Shown: piece after piece, positions 17,201 through 44,342 of the stretch | How positions within the stretch are numbered: the stretch's first letter is position 1 | How the letters are laid out: each line of letters opens with the position of its first letter | NCBI GenBank assembly: GCA_001828605.1 | Contig: MHZB01000064.1 | Coordinates: 1-49,385, forward strand | DNA: 49,385 nt | Source: Planctomycetes bacterium RIFCSPLOWO2_12_FULL_50_35 | GTDB lineage: Bacteria; Planctomycetota; Brocadiia; Brocadiales; Bathyanammoxibiaceae | Direction of reading: 5' to 3' | The notes under the pieces: generated by a model | What the model was told of the DNA's origin: nothing | What the model saw: only the letters and a program-made list of their open reading frames with translations | Database searches by the model: none | Position numbers and translations under genes: made by a program

Positions 17201-18259
17201 TTACACAATCTCCACCAGGCGTTTGCCCTTTATTACCTTCCCTATGACCACGGCGTCCTGACCCTCTGCCCGGAGAATCCGTATTACCGAATCCCCGTAA
17301 CAGTCTCCCACGATAAGCACCATGCCTATGCCCATATTGAATACCTGGTACATCTCATCTTCCGGCACGTCTCCCAGTCTCTTGATAAGCTTAAAGACGG
17401 GATAAGGCGTCCAGCTATTTTTTTCTATCCTAACCGCCGTACCCTGGGGCAGGATACGCGGTATGTTCCCGGGGAACCCCCCCCCGGTAATGTGTGCGAT
17501 ACCTTTCACCACGCGTTTTACCTTGTAGTGCTCCAACACCCTCTTCATGGCCTTAACGTAAATCTTTGTGGGCCTCAACAGTTCCTCTCCCAGTGTCACG
17601 CCAAGCTCCTCAACCTTCTTCCTGACGGACCACTTCTGTTTCTGGAAAAAGATTTTTCGTACAAGAGAAAAGCCGTTGCTGTGCAGCCCGCTTGAGGAAA
17701 GACCCACCACCACATCCCCCGGTACAATGGTCTTGCCGAGTATCAGGCCCTTCTTTTCCCTGACCCCTACCGCAAACCCGGCGAGGTCGTATTCGCCATT
17801 GTGATAAAAATCCGGCATCTCAGCGGTCTCCCCTCCGAGTAAGGCGCATTCGGCCTCCTTACATCCCGCGACTATACCTTTGATTACCTGATGTAACCGG
17901 GAAGGCACTACCTTGCTGGACGCAATGTAGTCGAGAAAAAAGAGGGGGTCGGCACCCATGGTCAAGACGTCGTTAACGCACATGGCTACGAGGTCTATGC
18001 CAACCGTATCGTGCTTATCCATCATAAACGCTATCTTAAGCTTTGTCCCGACACCATCGGTTGAGGCGACCAGCACGGGTTGACGGTATTTCTTGAACAG
18101 GCGGTTTTCGTAATGAAGGCTGAAGAGTCCACTAAAGCCGTCGGGGCATTCGATGACCCTTGGACCAAAGGTCTTTCGCATATCCGCATGTATGTCCCCG
18201 GTGAATTTCTCCTTGGTGGATATATCCACACCTGCATCTTTATAAGATATTGGGGACAT
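17201..18259 (-). CDS. purM: Phosphoribosylformylglycinamidine cyclo-ligase (AIR synthetase)
   Basis: The fifth step of purine synthesis: ATP-dependent closure of FGAM to AIR. From the chosen start (SPISYKDAGVDI) the protein has 352 residues, normal for PurM. Typical motifs are SYKDAGVDI, LVASTDGVGTKLKIAF, DLVAMCVNDVLTMGADPLFFLDYIA, LLGGETAEMP and GIAHITGGGFPGNIPRIL. The ORF-track start at 18349 would overlap purF. ATG 18259 has AAAAGGG nine bases upstream and matches the family N terminus. It follows purF by 50 bases on the same strand. Confidence 0.95.
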   Translation of the reverse strand: MSPISYKDAGVDISTKEKFTGDIHADMRKTFGPRVIECPDGFSGLFSLHYENRLFKKYRQPVLVASTDGVGTKLKIAFMMDKHDTVGIDLVAMCVNDVLTMGADPLFFLDYIASSKVVPSRLHQVIKGIVAGCKEAECALLGGETAEMPDFYHNGEYDLAGFAVGVREKKGLILGKTIVPGDVVVGLSSSGLHSNGFSLVRKIFFQKQKWSVRKKVEELGVTLGEELLRPTKIYVKAMKRVLEHYKVKRVVKGIAHITGGGFPGNIPRILPQGTAVRIEKNSWTPYPVFKLIKRLGDVPEDEMYQVFNMGIGMVLIVGDCYGDSVIRILRAEGQDAVVIGKVIKGKRLVEIV

Positions 18260-22728: not shown

Positions 22729-24609
22729 TTAGTTCTTTTCAAGCTGATAATTTGCAGCAGAGACCAAATTATTGAACTTAACCTCCCTTTCTTTCGGATC
22801 AAGTAAAGGTCTAAGTCTAATTCTACATATAAAGCCATCTTGGTCCAGGGAGAATTCTACCAAATCGAATATGCGAGAGTGGCTTTGCCAGTCTATCGTC
22901 GCGTTTATCTTAAGGGAATCCATGTTCTTAACCTCGCCTCGGTTATAAGCAGATTGAACTTTAAATATCCATTCACGTATAGCGTGGGTGAGGTATAAAT
23001 CCATATCTATTTCCTTTGGACATGTTGCTTCATCTAAGATATTTATAAGTTCACCGTATCGCGCATGAATTTCTCCCTCAGTTAAATTACTCTCTAAAAT
23101 AAAATCTCGCTCTTGTTCAAAGGTTCTTACTTTGGCGGCATCTGAAATTGTGTATTTGTCGTCCTTATATTCAGGTAAATAGTGTTCAAGTTCGCCATTA
23201 GACAGAACATGCACTCCAGAACGTTTAAAAGCCTCAATTATTTTTTGGAGTCTCCCTTCGAGAAAGCTCCCTTCTTTTGTATTGCTTGAAATGAGACTCT
23301 TAATTTGCTCTCTAAGATATCTTAATCCAAGCAAGTAAACATAGCGTTTTTTATCCAATTCACTTGCTTTACAAAGCGCATCTCGGAAGTTTTGAAGATT
23401 TGACTCGGAGGTATCAGCTAACTTTGGTTCAAGTTCACTCAGGCACGCACTTATTGCCCTTTCGGCATCCCCTATCACCTGCATAAGATCTCTCCCTATA
23501 CCTTCCGTTTGCAAATATGCTCTACAGCGGTCATCTTCAGATACAGACTGCCTTAGTTTGCCTTTGGTTAATACGTCTAAATCAGCCACAAACTTAGCAT
23601 CAATGTTCAATTTCTTGCATATTTTGAAAAACAAATCTAATTCTTCTTTGCCGGTAACGTCAATAATACAAGCCACTAACGCCCCTAAAGGCTTGCCTCT
23701 TTTCTCTTGGATTAGACTGAAGACCTGTTGGTCAGAATAGCCTTCTACAAAAATTGGACGAGAGGCAAAGAAGAATTGTTTGTGATGCGTATTGAGCCTT
23801 GGCAATAGACGCTTTATTCTTCGCTCGTCTTCGCTATCTATTTGATCAATAAATGAAGGAGGCTTATCAGGCTGGAAAACGACACAGTGCTTCAAATCTT
23901 CAAGTGTGCGTATATCAACGTAATAAGGAGAATGCGTAACGATAAAAAATATTTTCTTCTCTGGAGAGTTAAGCGGATTGCCCGCAATCTTTCTAAGTTC
24001 TTGCAAAAAGAATGTTTGAAATTGTGGATGCAGATGCAACTCTGGCTCATCAATAATGAGGCAATTATAATCGTCATTATAGAGGAAGGTTAAAAGAGTA
24101 AGCAGTTCTTTGAGCCCATGGCACTCACTCTCCTTTAGACCATATTCTGGACCATATTCGTTTCCCACATCTATTTTCTGGATTCTAGGCTTGAGGAATC
24201 CGCCTTCTTCTACCAATCTTATTCGTCTACCAAACAACTGGGATAAGGTTGCTTCAATTTTTATCTTAATATCCAGTTTTTCTTTCAGAGTTACAAAGGC
24301 ATCGGCAGATAAGCCATAGTTCGTTCCAAAATTTTTAAGAACAGCAAATTGTCCCATATTTAACCCGCTCTCTAGGGCGCTATAGCCAAAATACTCATAT
24401 CTCTGCCTTTCAAGACCAGCGAGACGTTCCGAGCTCAAATATCGAACTTTGATGTTTTGGTTTTGACACTGTTGCTTTAATTGTTCAACAAATCGTGTTT
24501 TCCCAGTTGCATTAGGACCTACGAGATAGTTTATATTACCCCATTCATTCTTTTGGAACTTCTTGTTACCCCATAAGTCTGGAATCGAAATATTGATGTC
24601 GAGCTTCAT
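22729..24609 (-). CDS. OLD-family ATP-dependent endonuclease (AAA ATPase plus TOPRIM)
   Basis: A 626-residue protein with an SMC/ABC-like ATPase: Walker A GPNATGKT (31-38), Walker B CLIIDEPELHLHP (183-195) and the switch His in VTHSPYY (226). A TOPRIM nuclease domain follows, with Glu289 (FVEGYSD) and the DxD pair at 343/345 (ADLDV). This is the OLD nuclease layout, whose members act in phage defence and DNA interference. No UvrD helicase (Gabija), reverse transcriptase (retron) or AriB-like partner lies beside it, so it is a stand-alone type. Base composition is visibly more AT-rich than murJ or proB, which suggests transfer. Its ribosome binding site (TTTGAGG) lies in the tail of a duplicated proB 3' end. 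Confidence 0.85.
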   Translation of the reverse strand: MKLDINISIPDLWGNKKFQKNEWGNINYLVGPNATGKTRFVEQLKQQCQNQNIKVRYLSSERLAGLERQRYEYFGYSALESGLNMGQFAVLKNFGTNYGLSADAFVTLKEKLDIKIKIEATLSQLFGRRIRLVEEGGFLKPRIQKIDVGNEYGPEYGLKESECHGLKELLTLLTFLYNDDYNCLIIDEPELHLHPQFQTFFLQELRKIAGNPLNSPEKKIFFIVTHSPYYVDIRTLEDLKHCVVFQPDKPPSFIDQIDSEDERRIKRLLPRLNTHHKQFFFASRPIFVEGYSDQQVFSLIQEKRGKPLGALVACIIDVTGKEELDLFFKICKKLNIDAKFVADLDVLTKGKLRQSVSEDDRCRAYLQTEGIGRDLMQVIGDAERAISACLSELEPKLADTSESNLQNFRDALCKASELDKKRYVYLLGLRYLREQIKSLISSNTKEGSFLEGRLQKIIEAFKRSGVHVLSNGELEHYLPEYKDDKYTISDAAKVRTFEQERDFILESNLTEGEIHARYGELINILDEATCPKEIDMDLYLTHAIREWIFKVQSAYNRGEVKNMDSLKINATIDWQSHSRIFDLVEFSLDQDGFICRIRLRPLLDPKEREVKFNNLVSAANYQLEKN

Positions 24610-24620
24610 TACATTTTACC

Positions 24621-24681
24621 TCAAAGTAATACCATATTGTCCCTGCGCACCACCTCGTCGTACGGTTTGGAGCCCAGTGTT
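24621..24681 (-). pseudogene. Duplicated 3' end of proB (in-frame remnant)
   Basis: The 48 bases 24631-24678 match the true proB 3' end (25462-25509) at 46 positions and in the same orientation. The copy still reads LGSKPYDEVVRRDNMVLL and then TGA (24621-24623), against LGSKPYDEVVHRDNMVLI in proB. Upstream of it the similarity stops. It marks one edge of the DUF433/DUF5615 insertion, like an attachment-site duplication or the scar of an allele exchange. Confidence 0.8.
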
Positions 24682-24720
24682 TTTCTCCACTGTGGAATTG
24701 GAGGTCTCTTGTCTCGTATT

Positions 24721-25077
24721 TTACTTTAAGCTGATTCTATAACCCTTCTTTGTCAAAACCACCAACTTCCCTTTTAAGTCATCAAAGTTTGATTCTTTGA
24801 AAAATCTGTCTAGAGCCTTTGTTACATCTTCCCAAATAGAAGGATGGATCCTGACGACGATTATTCCACAGGTTTCTCTGGGTGGGTATTGCAAAATGTT
24901 TGCAAAATGTTTATCAAACGTTATAAGCGCCCTCTCTTGCTTTTTAGCAAGATTAACAACCTCGTTATCGGAGATCCTGGAAGCATTCAATTCTTTGACG
25001 TCTACAACATCGTGACCGGTTTCTACAAGGTGGGATACTATCCTGGAAGGAACATTTTCATCCGCAAGAAATCTCAA
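24721..25077 (-). CDS. DUF5615 PIN-like protein, probable toxin
   Basis: A 118-residue PIN-like protein beginning RFLADENVPSRIVSHLVETGHDV. The acidic residues of LADEN, the DNEVVNLA segment and the ALITFDKHFANIL motif are the usual metal-binding positions of the DUF5615/Mut7-C RNase group. The start is a TTG that immediately follows the stop of the DUF433 gene (TAATTG), with GAGG upstream, so the two are translationally coupled. DUF433-DUF5615 pairs correspond to the VapB45-VapC45-type toxin-antitoxin arrangement. RNase activity is inferred from the fold. Confidence 0.8.
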   Translation of the reverse strand: MRFLADENVPSRIVSHLVETGHDVVDVKELNASRISDNEVVNLAKKQERALITFDKHFANILQYPPRETCGIIVVRIHPSIWEDVTKALDRFFKESNFDDLKGKLVVLTKKGYRISLK

Positions 25078-25311
25078 TTAAACAACTTCCTCAAAGGGTA
25101 TAAACTCCTGTTCTTTTATCAGGAAAGCAGCGTAATCAAGGCAGGCCTTAATGTCCTCTACGGCAAGATTTGGGTAATAATCTCTTATAATATCTTCTGG
25201 CGTCAGTCCCTCCTTCAATAGTTCAAGTATAAGATAGACCATAACCCTTGTACCCTTAATACAGGGTTGGCCGTGGCAGACGTTTGGGTCTATCTCAATA
25301 CGTTCTTTCAT
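25078..25311 (-). CDS. DUF433 protein, probable antitoxin
   Basis: A 77-residue DUF433 protein: RIEIDPNVCHGQPCIKGTRVMVYLILELLKEGLTPEDIIRDYYPNLAVEDIKACLDYA. The CxGxPxIxGTRV motif and the winged-helix-like second half are characteristic. Such proteins sit upstream of PIN-like DUF5615 genes and are thought to neutralise them and bind their own promoter. It lies within the interval bounded by the two copies of the proB 3' end. The AT-richer composition matches the toxin and the OLD gene. Confidence 0.82.
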   Translation of the reverse strand: MKERIEIDPNVCHGQPCIKGTRVMVYLILELLKEGLTPEDIIRDYYPNLAVEDIKACLDYAAFLIKEQEFIPFEEVV

Positions 25312-26971: not shown

Positions 26972-28411
26972 CTAGTTTGTCTTCAGCTTCTGTATGAGGA
27001 CTTCGTTGACCATCTTAGGGTTTGCCTTGCCTGTAGACTGACGCATTACTTGGCCGACAAGGAAGCCCAGGGCCGTCTTTTTCCCTTTTTGATAATCGCT
27101 GACTGCCGACGGGTTATCATCCAGAACCTTTAGTACAAGCCGTTCCAGTTCTTCCCTGTCGCTTATCTGAAGAAGCCCTTTTTCCTCCACTATCTTAGCG
27201 GCATCACTGCCCGAGCTGGCCATGTCAGCAAATACCTCTCGGGCAGTGGGCATGCTTACGGTGCCCTTTTCGACCATTACTACCAGCCCAACCAGGGCCT
27301 CGGGGCGCACCTTAAAGTCCCTTATTCCTAACCTCCTCTCCTTAAGCTCCCTGAGCACGTCATTTGTTATCCAATTACACAGGGACTTGGGGGCGGCATG
27401 GAGTTCCACACACCGCTCAAAATAATCCGCCACTGCCTTGTCTTCCGTAAGGACCCCTGCGTCATAGTCCGAGAGGGAGTATACCTCCACAAAGCGATTC
27501 CTTCTAGTAAGCGGAAGCTCCGGAAGCATAGACCTCAGTTCGCCCAGCCAACGCTCTTCAATTACCATTGGCACAAGGTCCGGCTCCGGGAAGTATCTGT
27601 AGTCATGTGCCTCTTCCTTGGTGCGCATCCTCTCGGTCCGTTCCCTAACCTCGTCCCACAGCCTGGTCTCCATATCCACCTTTCCCCCAGAGTCTAAGAC
27701 GCCTGTCTGGCGGTTTATTTCATACTCCAGGGCCTTGAGCACGGCCTTCATCGAGTTGAGGTTCTTCATCTCCACCCTGCTGCCCAATTTCTTCTGCCCC
27801 ACGGGCCTCAGTGATATTGACGCCTCAAACCTTAGAGACCCTTCCTGCATCTTACAGTCCGACACCTCGTTATACAGCAGAATGTTTCTCAGGGTCTGCA
27901 TAAACTGCTCAACCTCTTCCAGACTGCGCATGTCAGGTTCCGTGACTATCTCAAGGAGCGGGACACCGGCGCGGTTGAAGTCCACGAGGCTGTAATCTGC
28001 CGACGCATCCTCCGGGTGGACGAGTTTGCCGGCCTCCTCTTCCAGGTGCACGTTGTTGATGTTTATCTTCTTCACCCCGCCATTTGATCTTATTTCGACA
28101 TACCCGCCCACGCCCAGGTTTAGATGGTTCTGCGATATCTGATAGTTCTTGGGCAGGTCGGGGTAGTAGTAGTTTTTCCGGTCAAACGTACTGAAAAGGT
28201 TTATCCTGCAGTTAAGCGCAAGAGATGCCTTCAGGCTGTATTCCAGGGCCTTTTTGTTTAGTACCGGAAGCACACCCGGCATTCCCAGGCACACGGGACA
28301 GACCTGGGTATTAGGGGGTGCGCCAAAAACAGTAGGACAACTGCACCAGAGCTTGGACGCAGTCGCCAGCTCCGTATGCGTCTCAAGACCTATAACTACC
28401 TCGTATTTCAT
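26972..28411 (-). CDS. gatB: Asp-tRNA(Asn)/Glu-tRNA(Gln) amidotransferase subunit B
   Basis: GatB carries the kinase activity and binds the misacylated tRNA in the GatCAB complex, which turns Glu-tRNA(Gln) and/or Asp-tRNA(Asn) into the correct aminoacyl-tRNA. The protein starts MKYEVVIGLETHTELAT and has SKLWCSCPTVFGAPPNTQVCPVCLGMPGVLPVLN, with the CxC...CxxC zinc residues, then RKNYYYPDLPKNYQISQ and a C-terminal YqeY/tail domain ending ANPKMVNEVLIQKL. I shortened the ORF-track start by 16 codons, since the upstream part is a repeat. gatA and gatC lie 1.6 kb upstream on the same strand. Confidence 0.95.
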   Translation of the reverse strand: MKYEVVIGLETHTELATASKLWCSCPTVFGAPPNTQVCPVCLGMPGVLPVLNKKALEYSLKASLALNCRINLFSTFDRKNYYYPDLPKNYQISQNHLNLGVGGYVEIRSNGGVKKININNVHLEEEAGKLVHPEDASADYSLVDFNRAGVPLLEIVTEPDMRSLEEVEQFMQTLRNILLYNEVSDCKMQEGSLRFEASISLRPVGQKKLGSRVEMKNLNSMKAVLKALEYEINRQTGVLDSGGKVDMETRLWDEVRERTERMRTKEEAHDYRYFPEPDLVPMVIEERWLGELRSMLPELPLTRRNRFVEVYSLSDYDAGVLTEDKAVADYFERCVELHAAPKSLCNWITNDVLRELKERRLGIRDFKVRPEALVGLVVMVEKGTVSMPTAREVFADMASSGSDAAKIVEEKGLLQISDREELERLVLKVLDDNPSAVSDYQKGKKTALGFLVGQVMRQSTGKANPKMVNEVLIQKLKTN

Positions 28412-28439: not shown

Positions 28440-28465
28440 ACGTTGCAGCAAGCTGCCACGCTACA
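28440..28465. repeat. Half unit of the TGTAGCGT palindrome family upstream of gatB
   Basis: CGTTGCAGCAAGCTGCCACGCTACA carries the AGCAAGCT centre and one full arm, ACGCTACA. It accounts for the false 5' extension of gatB in the ORF track. Confidence 0.6.
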
Positions 28466-28483
28466 TTAGATCCTGCCCTTAAG

Positions 28484-28881
28484 CTAAATTGGTTCCTTGT
28501 GAATCAGACCAGATATTTCAGCTAACTTAGCACGAGTTTCAGTAAATTTTTGGTCTAAGGTACCAAGCTGGGTTTCAAGGGCTTCTAGCCTCTCAATCAA
28601 TTTGGGTATCTCTGGACTAGGTTCCAATTGCTCTGTTGACTCTAAATGTTCCTTCCAGCTTATTAATGCATCAACTGTGGTCCCTATTCTCACTATTTTA
28701 GAATCTAAGTCACCAATTCTAGAACTCAAAGCAGTAATTTTGCCTTCGTTAGCGATTCCTTTTCCAACTTTTTCTTCTAATACCGATACTTTTCCATATA
28801 GATAATACCCCCCCCACAGAGTGCAATGAGGGCAGTACTGATAATTATAAAAAATGCGCTCGTTAGATCAGGTTTTCCCAT
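28484..28881 (-). pseudogene. Membrane-anchored coiled-coil protein, frame broken at a G8 tract
   Basis: The ORF track shows only the last 81 residues. Translation clearly begins at ATG 28881, which has GGAGG eight bases upstream, giving MGKPDLTSAFFIIISTALIALCGGG. At a run of eight G (28808-28815) the frame shifts and stops after 34 codons. Adding one G joins it to YYLYGKVSVLEEKVGKGIANEGKITALSSRIGDLDSK... and continues to the stop at 28484. The product would be about 132 residues: one N-terminal membrane helix followed by a long coiled coil. It may be phase-variable, a recent pseudogene or a base-count error. Function unknown. Confidence 0.72.
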
Positions 28882-28926
28882 TTCAAGAACCTCCAAATTA
28901 AGTAAACAATGTAAAATTTAAGTTAC

Positions 28927-29287
28927 TGTAGCGTGGGAGCTTGCTCCCACGCTAAGCCTTTACCCAAAACTATCCATCAATCCACAAAAGGGATAATCCT
29001 GCTAACTCTTAACTAAACCTTTTCTAACGGAGGTCTCCAGAATGAGCGCTCTGCAAAAATAGTCTAAGCATCAATTTAAGAGTAGCCGCAGGCTTTAGCC
29101 TGCGTTATACGCACCCTAAAGGGTGCGGCTACATTTACCTCTTCAATTTGATACTTTTACAGAGGTCTCAATATGGGCAAACTTGGGAATAATTGAAATT
29201 CTTTAGTCTTAACGTCCTGTTTTTACCATACGTTTTATATCTGCTCGTTTTCACTCTACAGAACGTGGCAGCAAGCTGCCACGCTAC
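28927..29287. repeat. Repeat island upstream of the phosphoesterase
   Basis: Contents in order are GTAGCGTGGGAGCTTGCTCCCACGCTA (28927-28953); a TIR-like pair GAGCGCTCTGCAAAAAT (29044-29060) and ACTTTTACAGAGGTCTC (29153-29169) around GTAGCCGCAGGC...GCGGCTAC; and GAACGTGGCAGCAAGCTGCCACGCTACA (29261-29287). Inside the TIR pair a second inverted match (GCATCAATTTAAGAG against CTCTTCAATTTGATAC) lengthens the arms. No gene is seen. Confidence 0.65.
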
Positions 29288-29325
29288 ATTAAAAATATAG
29301 CACCAGACGCTGCACCAACGAGAAC

Positions 29326-30033
29326 TTAGAACTTTCCATGTCTCAGTTTCTTGGAAATAGTCTCAATCAAATCGTAGCGCAAGCGTGTTTCCTTCAGGGC
29401 CTTGACGGTCTCGTTAATGTCGTAATCCACCTTCTTAAACTCGACGTTACCGTCTTCCCATATAACATAGGATGCCTTGGGACTGTAACCGCTGGGGAAA
29501 CCCACACTGCCCGGATTAATGATAGTCGTCTTGCCTAGCTTCCTCTGCATGGGCATATGGGTATGACCTATAAACACAAAATCGGCGTCCACCCCCTTCA
29601 GCTCCCTGTTCATAACCTTGTCCGGGGTGTCGGGCGGAAGGAACGTACAATTATTTCCCCTTGGTGAGCCGTGGGATAATAAAATTTTGCAGCCGTCCAA
29701 CACTATCTCTTCCACCAGTGGAAGTCCCCTCAAGAACTCCTTTTCTTCTTCACTTAAAACGCTTCGTGTATACTCTTTCCCGGGCTCGGCCAGCTCAGCA
29801 TACTCCGGCGGACAGCAGCAGTCATCACGCAGCCCGCTTGCCGCGTCGTCATGGTTACCCCTTACAATCTTGTCGGAGATTGAACGCACAAGCTCAATGC
29901 ACTCCTTCGGGTTAGGCCCATAATTTACCAGGTCACCCAGACAGAATACCTTATCAACCCCCTTTTCATTCTCACGCACGGCGGACAGCGCCTGTATGTT
30001 TGAATGTATGTCAGATATTATCAGTATCTTCAT
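29326..30033 (-). CDS. YfcE/MJ0936-type metallophosphoesterase
   Basis: A 235-residue calcineurin-like phosphoesterase. The metal-binding motifs occur in order: [30 protein letters not shown] and IGHTHMP, followed by NPGSVGFP. This is the YfcE/MJ0936 subgroup, which hydrolyses phosphodiesters in vitro; the physiological substrate is unknown. [11 protein letters not shown] insertion with three adjacent cysteines after GNHDD is unusual. The start overlaps the gatA stop by four bases, so it is translationally coupled to the amidotransferase genes. Confidence 0.88.
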
Positions 30034-31830: not shown

Positions 31831-31898
31831 TGTAGCGTGGCAGCTTGCCGCCACGTTCGGACTATAACGCCAACGTGCGAGCAAGCTCGCACGCTACA
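31831..31898. repeat. Composite TGTAGCGT palindrome between the protease-like gene and gatC
   Basis: TGTAGCGTGGCAGCTTGCCGCCACG is followed by CGTGCGAGCAAGCTCGCACGCTACA. The two hairpins share arms but have different stems. This matches the tandem arrangement at 392-447 and 39705-39760. Confidence 0.7.
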
Positions 31899-39636: not shown

Positions 39637-39760
39637 ATGTAGCGTCGGAGCTTGCTCGACTGTTTGTAGGGGCGACCCGCCGGGTCGCCCCTACCTAATT
39701 TTTATGTAGCGTGCGAGTTTATCTCGCACGTTCAACGTGCCAGCAAGCTGGCACGCTACA
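39637..39760. repeat. Palindrome cluster between carA and carB
   Basis: Three units occur in 120 bases: TGTAGCGTCGGAGCTTGCTCGACTG; the 29-base palindrome GTAGGGGCGACCCG-C-CGGGTCGCCCCTAC (39666-39694); and the double unit TGTAGCGTGCGAG...GTGCCAGCAAGCTGGCACGCTACA (39705-39760). They lie inside a probable carA-carB transcript. Confidence 0.75.
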
Positions 39761-43787: not shown

Positions 43788-44342
43788 AAAGTTTTTGTGG
43801 TTAAGCAATTTTATGAAGAAGTTAGAGAGCTGGTCAGGCCATTATCCGCTTATGTTTTATTGTCCTCCTTACATTCCCGCTTCATTGCGAAGACAGACTC
43901 CGAGTAAGGCATTTTGATATTGCATTCTTATTCCTTTTCCTTGGGAGTAAGCAGGTTGTGCGGGCATATGGGCGGTATGGCCGCCTTGCCCATTTTTTAC
44001 TCTAGGTATTAATTGAAACTTTGCAAAACCCCTGCGTGATTGACATTCTGACCGAATTGTAGGGGCACGTTGCAACGTGCCCCTACTAGATTCTTCGCTC
44101 CGCTCAGAATGACATATGGTGTTCGTGTACTTTTGCAGGGCTCTCAATGTAGCGTGGCGGCAGCAGAACGTGGCAGCAAGCTACCACGCTACACCTGTGG
44201 AACGCCATTCCTGCGAAAGTCACTTGTCCAGTCTGTCATTCCTCCGAAAGCGGGAATCCATGGATTCCGCATTTAATGCGAAATGATGTGCGTGACGAAG
44301 CCTGCACATAACCGAGACTTAAATTAATATTGGTGGAGATTT
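43788..44342. repeat. Repeat island before dinB
   Basis: The first 200 bases show only a modest GGGCATATGGGCGGTATGGCCGCCTTGCCCAT hairpin. After that come the perfect 28-base palindrome GTAGGGGCACGTTG-CAACGTGCCCCTAC (44059-44086), its flanking CATTCTGA...TCAGAATGACA arms, a right-end motif CTTTTGCAGGGCTCTC (44130-44145), TGTAGCGTGGCGG...CCACGCTACA (44148-44193) and GTCATTCCTCCGAAAGCGGGAATCC. No gene. Confidence 0.65.

Follow-up and report, generated by a model that had tools for sequence, protein, structure and literature searches.

The window, a stretch of 49,385 nucleotides of an assembly from Planctomycetes bacterium RIFCSPLOWO2_12_FULL_50_35 (1.99 Mb in 122 contigs, 89.6% complete), carries an operon in the order gatC-gatA-phosphoesterase-gatB that is tightly packed except at one place. 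There, on the operon strand between the calcineurin-like phosphoesterase and gatB, lies a small gene whose two reading frames part at a run of G, and it is surrounded by repeats. The features of this region are listed below in window coordinates.

26972..28411, minus strand: gatB, downstream operon neighbour, likely ATG at 28411
28441..28468, minus strand: REP palindrome of the GTAG type on the 3' side of the gene, with its GTAG end turned toward the gene
28484..28807, minus strand: downstream frame, 107 codons and stop, helical and coiled-coil-like segment (from codon bias, open frame and AlphaFold2)
28777..28881, minus strand: upstream frame, ATG, 34 codons and TAG, predicted membrane helix at about residues 8-25
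28808..28815, minus strand: run of eight G (G8) where the coding frames lose register with each other
28890..28894, minus strand: ribosome binding site GGAGG
28928..28955, plus strand: REP palindrome of the GTAG type on the 5' side of the gene, with its GTAG end turned toward the gene
29043..29170, no strand assigned: interspersed repeat of about 130 bp with two palindromes, MITE/BIME-like, about 20 near-complete genomic copies
29260..29291, minus strand: third GTAG-type REP palindrome in the spacer
29326..30033, minus strand: calcineurin-like phosphoesterase, upstream operon neighbour (PF12850, 4.4e-28)

The ATG of the gene (28881-28879) is preceded at a distance of 8 bases by the ribosome binding site GGAGG (28894-28890), and the zero frame, MGKPDLTSAFFIIISTALIALCGGGIIYMEKYRY, encodes in its 34 codons a hydrophobic helix with a Cys-Gly-Gly end, then crosses the G run and ends at TAG (28779-28777). 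Exactly eight G make up this tract (28808-28815, minus strand). One base out of register, a second frame extends uninterrupted over 107 codons between the tract and its stop codon at 28486-28484, and apart from the frame change these codons show no decay. These observations bear out the initial annotation, which had described a membrane-helix gene with an excellent ribosome binding site whose frame stops shortly past a run of eight G, and the 132-residue product that it obtained by adding one G is arithmetically right. The second half, which it gave as an intact frame of 81 codons, is indeed open, but is merely the part of the 107-codon frame that follows the first TTG.

Codon scores, for which either the window and neighbouring genes or a single gene of a low-GC island served as the training set, favoured one frame upstream of the tract and another downstream of it. 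Upstream, the ATG frame was the best of three (+1.3 vs -5.7 and -2.3). Downstream, with the window genes as training, the shifted frame scored -16.9, leading its two sister frames (-53 and -56) by 36-40 log units, and the opposite strand scored -25 to -33; when the low-GC island gene was used for training, the shifted frame scored +9.9 compared to -34 to -45 for the sister frames and -2 to -15 for the opposite strand, which lay below the shifted frame with every training set. In first-order Markov sequences of the same composition, any frame was open over the downstream length in 0.055% of trials. AlphaFold2, run on the downstream part as a single sequence, predicted helices at residues 2-57 and 66-103 with a mean pLDDT of 77.5. 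Because a hydrophobic periodicity of 3.5 residues as strong as that observed was reached by 7.7% of shuffles and is suggestive only, it is chiefly the AlphaFold2 helices that justify the term coiled coil; the downstream part is likely, if not proven, to form a coiled coil, and a small membrane-anchored helical protein is a fair description of the product. The codon statistics and the modelled helices support the view of the initial annotation that the G8 run interrupts a true coding sequence. Were there no gene, and had an AT-rich spacer simply left two frames open by chance, homologues would be expected to be absent everywhere searched and family matches to fall below cut-off, as they do; however, the strong ribosome binding site and membrane helix, the frame-specific codon bias on both sides, the rarity of so long an open frame per trial and the helical model make this very improbable.

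Homology searches were made with the 81-residue frame or with the X-joined protein as queries. No detectable relatives were found in the 8 other genomes of the family or a phylum sample of 392, in 84,980 species genomes (about 85,000), or in IMG/VR, phage or plasmid collections, and Pfam, NCBIfam and PHROGs returned merely weak coiled-coil chance matches, far under the cut-offs. On these searches, the gene appears to be a lineage-specific orphan, known from one uncultured Planctomycetota genome.

The spacer between the phosphoesterase and gatB measures 914 bp here. Counted from the phosphoesterase stop to the gatB ATG, the same spacer is 65 bp in G006 (which matches CSMAG_3136), 77 bp in G004 and 3 bp in G005 (which matches CSMAG_693; measured from position 209 of L041, where the match ends, to the ATG at base 216), three relatives from the same family in which the site is empty of the gene. 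The 914-bp length is due to the presence of the gene together with the REP and MITE-like repeats. Each of the short spacers of G006 and G004 holds one palindrome of the same REP family. The approximately 130-bp repeat is present in about 20 near-complete copies in the genome, mostly at 82-92% identity, and a scan of the spacer for promoters and terminators gave nothing exceeding shuffles. The initial annotation described the locus accurately, and could see neither these REP and MITE-like surroundings nor that relatives lack the gene.

The REP palindromes are short, open with GTAG and recur at about 31 places in the genome (with 3 or fewer mismatches), dispersed and extragenic, as is characteristic of GTAG-type REPs, repeats that have been described in Planctomycetes too (PMC3733652). 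The stop codon of the gene lies 15 bases from the 3' REP, and the ribosome binding site lies 33 bases from the 5' REP. Further GTAG-type REPs in the window are found at 393-416, 31832-31897, 39736-39759 and 44169-44192, some of the window REPs being inverted pairs (31832/31874). The genome also contains Y1-type transposases, with five PF01797 matches over cut-off that may belong to the RAYT subclass, and no REPs of the same family flank the four transposase loci examined. The arrangement resembles the GTAG REPs and REPINs associated with RAYT transposases (PMC3733652, PMC3116915) in the GTAG start, the tens of dispersed copies, the inverted pairs and the Y1-type transposase genes in the same genome; dissimilar from those systems, a reading frame of about 400 bp is situated here between two inverted REPs, and the four transposase loci have no flanking REP of the family. 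The REPs may have moved the gene or may simply flank its landing place. It would be extremely improbable, in our estimation, that the inverted GTAG REPs carry the orphan gene as a RAYT-mobilised cassette and that its product is, in addition, switched or recoded at the G8 run.

To place the tract among others of its kind, all G8 matches of the genome were collected and the surroundings of each run were inspected individually. The 24 overlapping matches represent 21 runs (18 of G8, three of G9, none longer), and the window has 3 G8 matches compared to 4.5 +/- 3.0 from shuffles. About a dozen of the G8 and G9 runs lie within intact frames of conserved genes, the names of which were given by eye from the translations, with a family search covering some only: purM (G9), lspA (G9), rpsC, murD, rsmH, nuoE, gyrB, and methylene-tetrahydrofolate-reductase-like, TPR, glycosyltransferase-like, lysylphosphatidylglycerol-synthase-like and other genes. 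The purM run (17477-17485) is in the same window, codes for Gly-Gly-Gly in an intact frame and would serve well as an internal standard when homopolymer lengths are called. The remaining runs are in spacers, ahead of gene starts, at a gene end or in a low-complexity frame, and only the run at 28808-28815, out of all 21, parts two frames. Among six relatives from the family, G8 matches are far more numerous in four (69-84 each), similar in number in one (26) and a little less numerous in one (20). GGG accounts for 25% of the Gly codons in neighbouring genes and is no rare codon, and thus a run of GGG is no sign of special selection. The G8 run at 28808-28815 is, in itself, nothing special. One further G8 run is positioned directly 5' of the ATG of a rny-like gene (L014 2001-2012, G000:C75), where it may act as a ribosome binding site.

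These run statistics bear directly on how the break should be read. In the initial annotation, the position of a G8 run at the boundary of two frames was taken as the mark of a phase-variable gene, in which slipped-strand changes of the tract would turn a full-length membrane protein on and off. The locus does share with the poly-G and poly-C genes of Campylobacter, Helicobacter and Neisseria an early G homopolymer in a membrane protein gene, here just past the membrane helix, whose length sets the frame, and both frames are kept; switching at such tracts is a mechanism known from other bacteria (PMC3711429, PMC2823697). A literature search of limited scope found no report of such switching in Planctomycetota. 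Unlike in those systems, however, long G runs are not enriched here (21 runs in 2 Mb, and no over-representation in the window), are not concentrated in contingency-type genes but frequent in intact housekeeping genes, and have no tail of longer runs, and the genome encodes a full-length MutS. The run statistics and MutS speak against the use of G runs as switches in this genome; the proposal that such a run marks a phase-variable gene is not supported, and phase variation of the gene is rather unlikely. In recoding, a backward slip of the ribosome by one base on G-GGG-GGU, or stuttering of RNA polymerase, would allow the full-length protein to be made alongside a 34-residue peptide from a single mRNA. 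This would be similar to what occurs in dnaX, IS elements and GeneTack clusters (PMC3711429), in which two frames are connected through a slippery homopolymer and the joined protein arises by a -1 slip. The zero-frame GGG GGT after G allows -1 re-pairing toward the joined product, and the downstream frame is undamaged; however, the heptamer G GGG GGT fits the pattern X XXY YYZ trivially because of the G run, the run is of G and not of A or T, where transcriptional slippage is described as mostly taking place (PMC3711429), no downstream stimulatory structure was found (fold z-score of -0.48), no SD-like stimulator was seen upstream by eye, and the gene has no detectable relatives in which conservation of the site could be followed. 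We consider recoding quite improbable.

A more mundane possibility is that the cells hold an intact gene and that the length of the tract was miscalled in the assembly or consensus. Homopolymers are the commonest place of such errors, and the genome is fragmented and incomplete (122 contigs) and, like its named relatives, very likely metagenome-assembled. Against this, not one of the dozen or so other G8 and G9 runs in conserved genes disrupts its frame, which indicates that the assembly reads such runs properly as a rule and that the genome tolerates them; with 0 of 12 runs broken, the error rate per run is roughly below 22% at 95% confidence. The chance of a consensus error is thereby lowered, not removed, and such an error is somewhat unlikely to account for the break.

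Since similar G runs are harmless in many intact genes here, ordinary slippage is the most likely origin of the break. Our preferred reading, held tentatively and at slightly less than even chances, is that an orphan gene was gained in a landing zone of REP and MITE-like repeats, that a single slippage event then split its frame, and that the break has no function. The lineage-specific gene that entered the repeat-rich spacer would have encoded a small membrane protein with a single pass and a helical, coiled-coil-like tail, and slippage by one base, in a G run that is itself incidental, would have shifted its two halves relative to each other in the population that was sequenced. From the allele as assembled, no more than a membrane peptide of 34 residues would then be made, and the gene would now be a young pseudogene or a neutral polymorphism. 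We infer that the frameshift exists in the cells, arose recently and plays no part in regulation; however, it should be noted that a clean downstream frame is also expected if a switched or recoded gene is still expressed.

Homopolymer frameshifts, orphan genes and REP-rich spacers are already known kinds. The locus serves as a control case, because a G8 run between two preserved frames mimics phase variation when it is viewed alone, while runs of G8-G9 are everyday features of purM, lspA, rpsC, murD and gyrB in the same genome. More useful is the setting itself, in which an orphan lies among REP and MITE-like repeats that widened an operon spacer of 3-77 bp to 914 bp, and the locus is thus an example of an entry point for new genes in a packed operon. 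Elsewhere in the window, the low-GC (39%) island at 22729-25311 encodes an OLD-like TOPRIM/AAA ATPase and a DUF433/DUF5615 (PIN-like) pair, and the genes of this island resemble defence and toxin-antitoxin genes.
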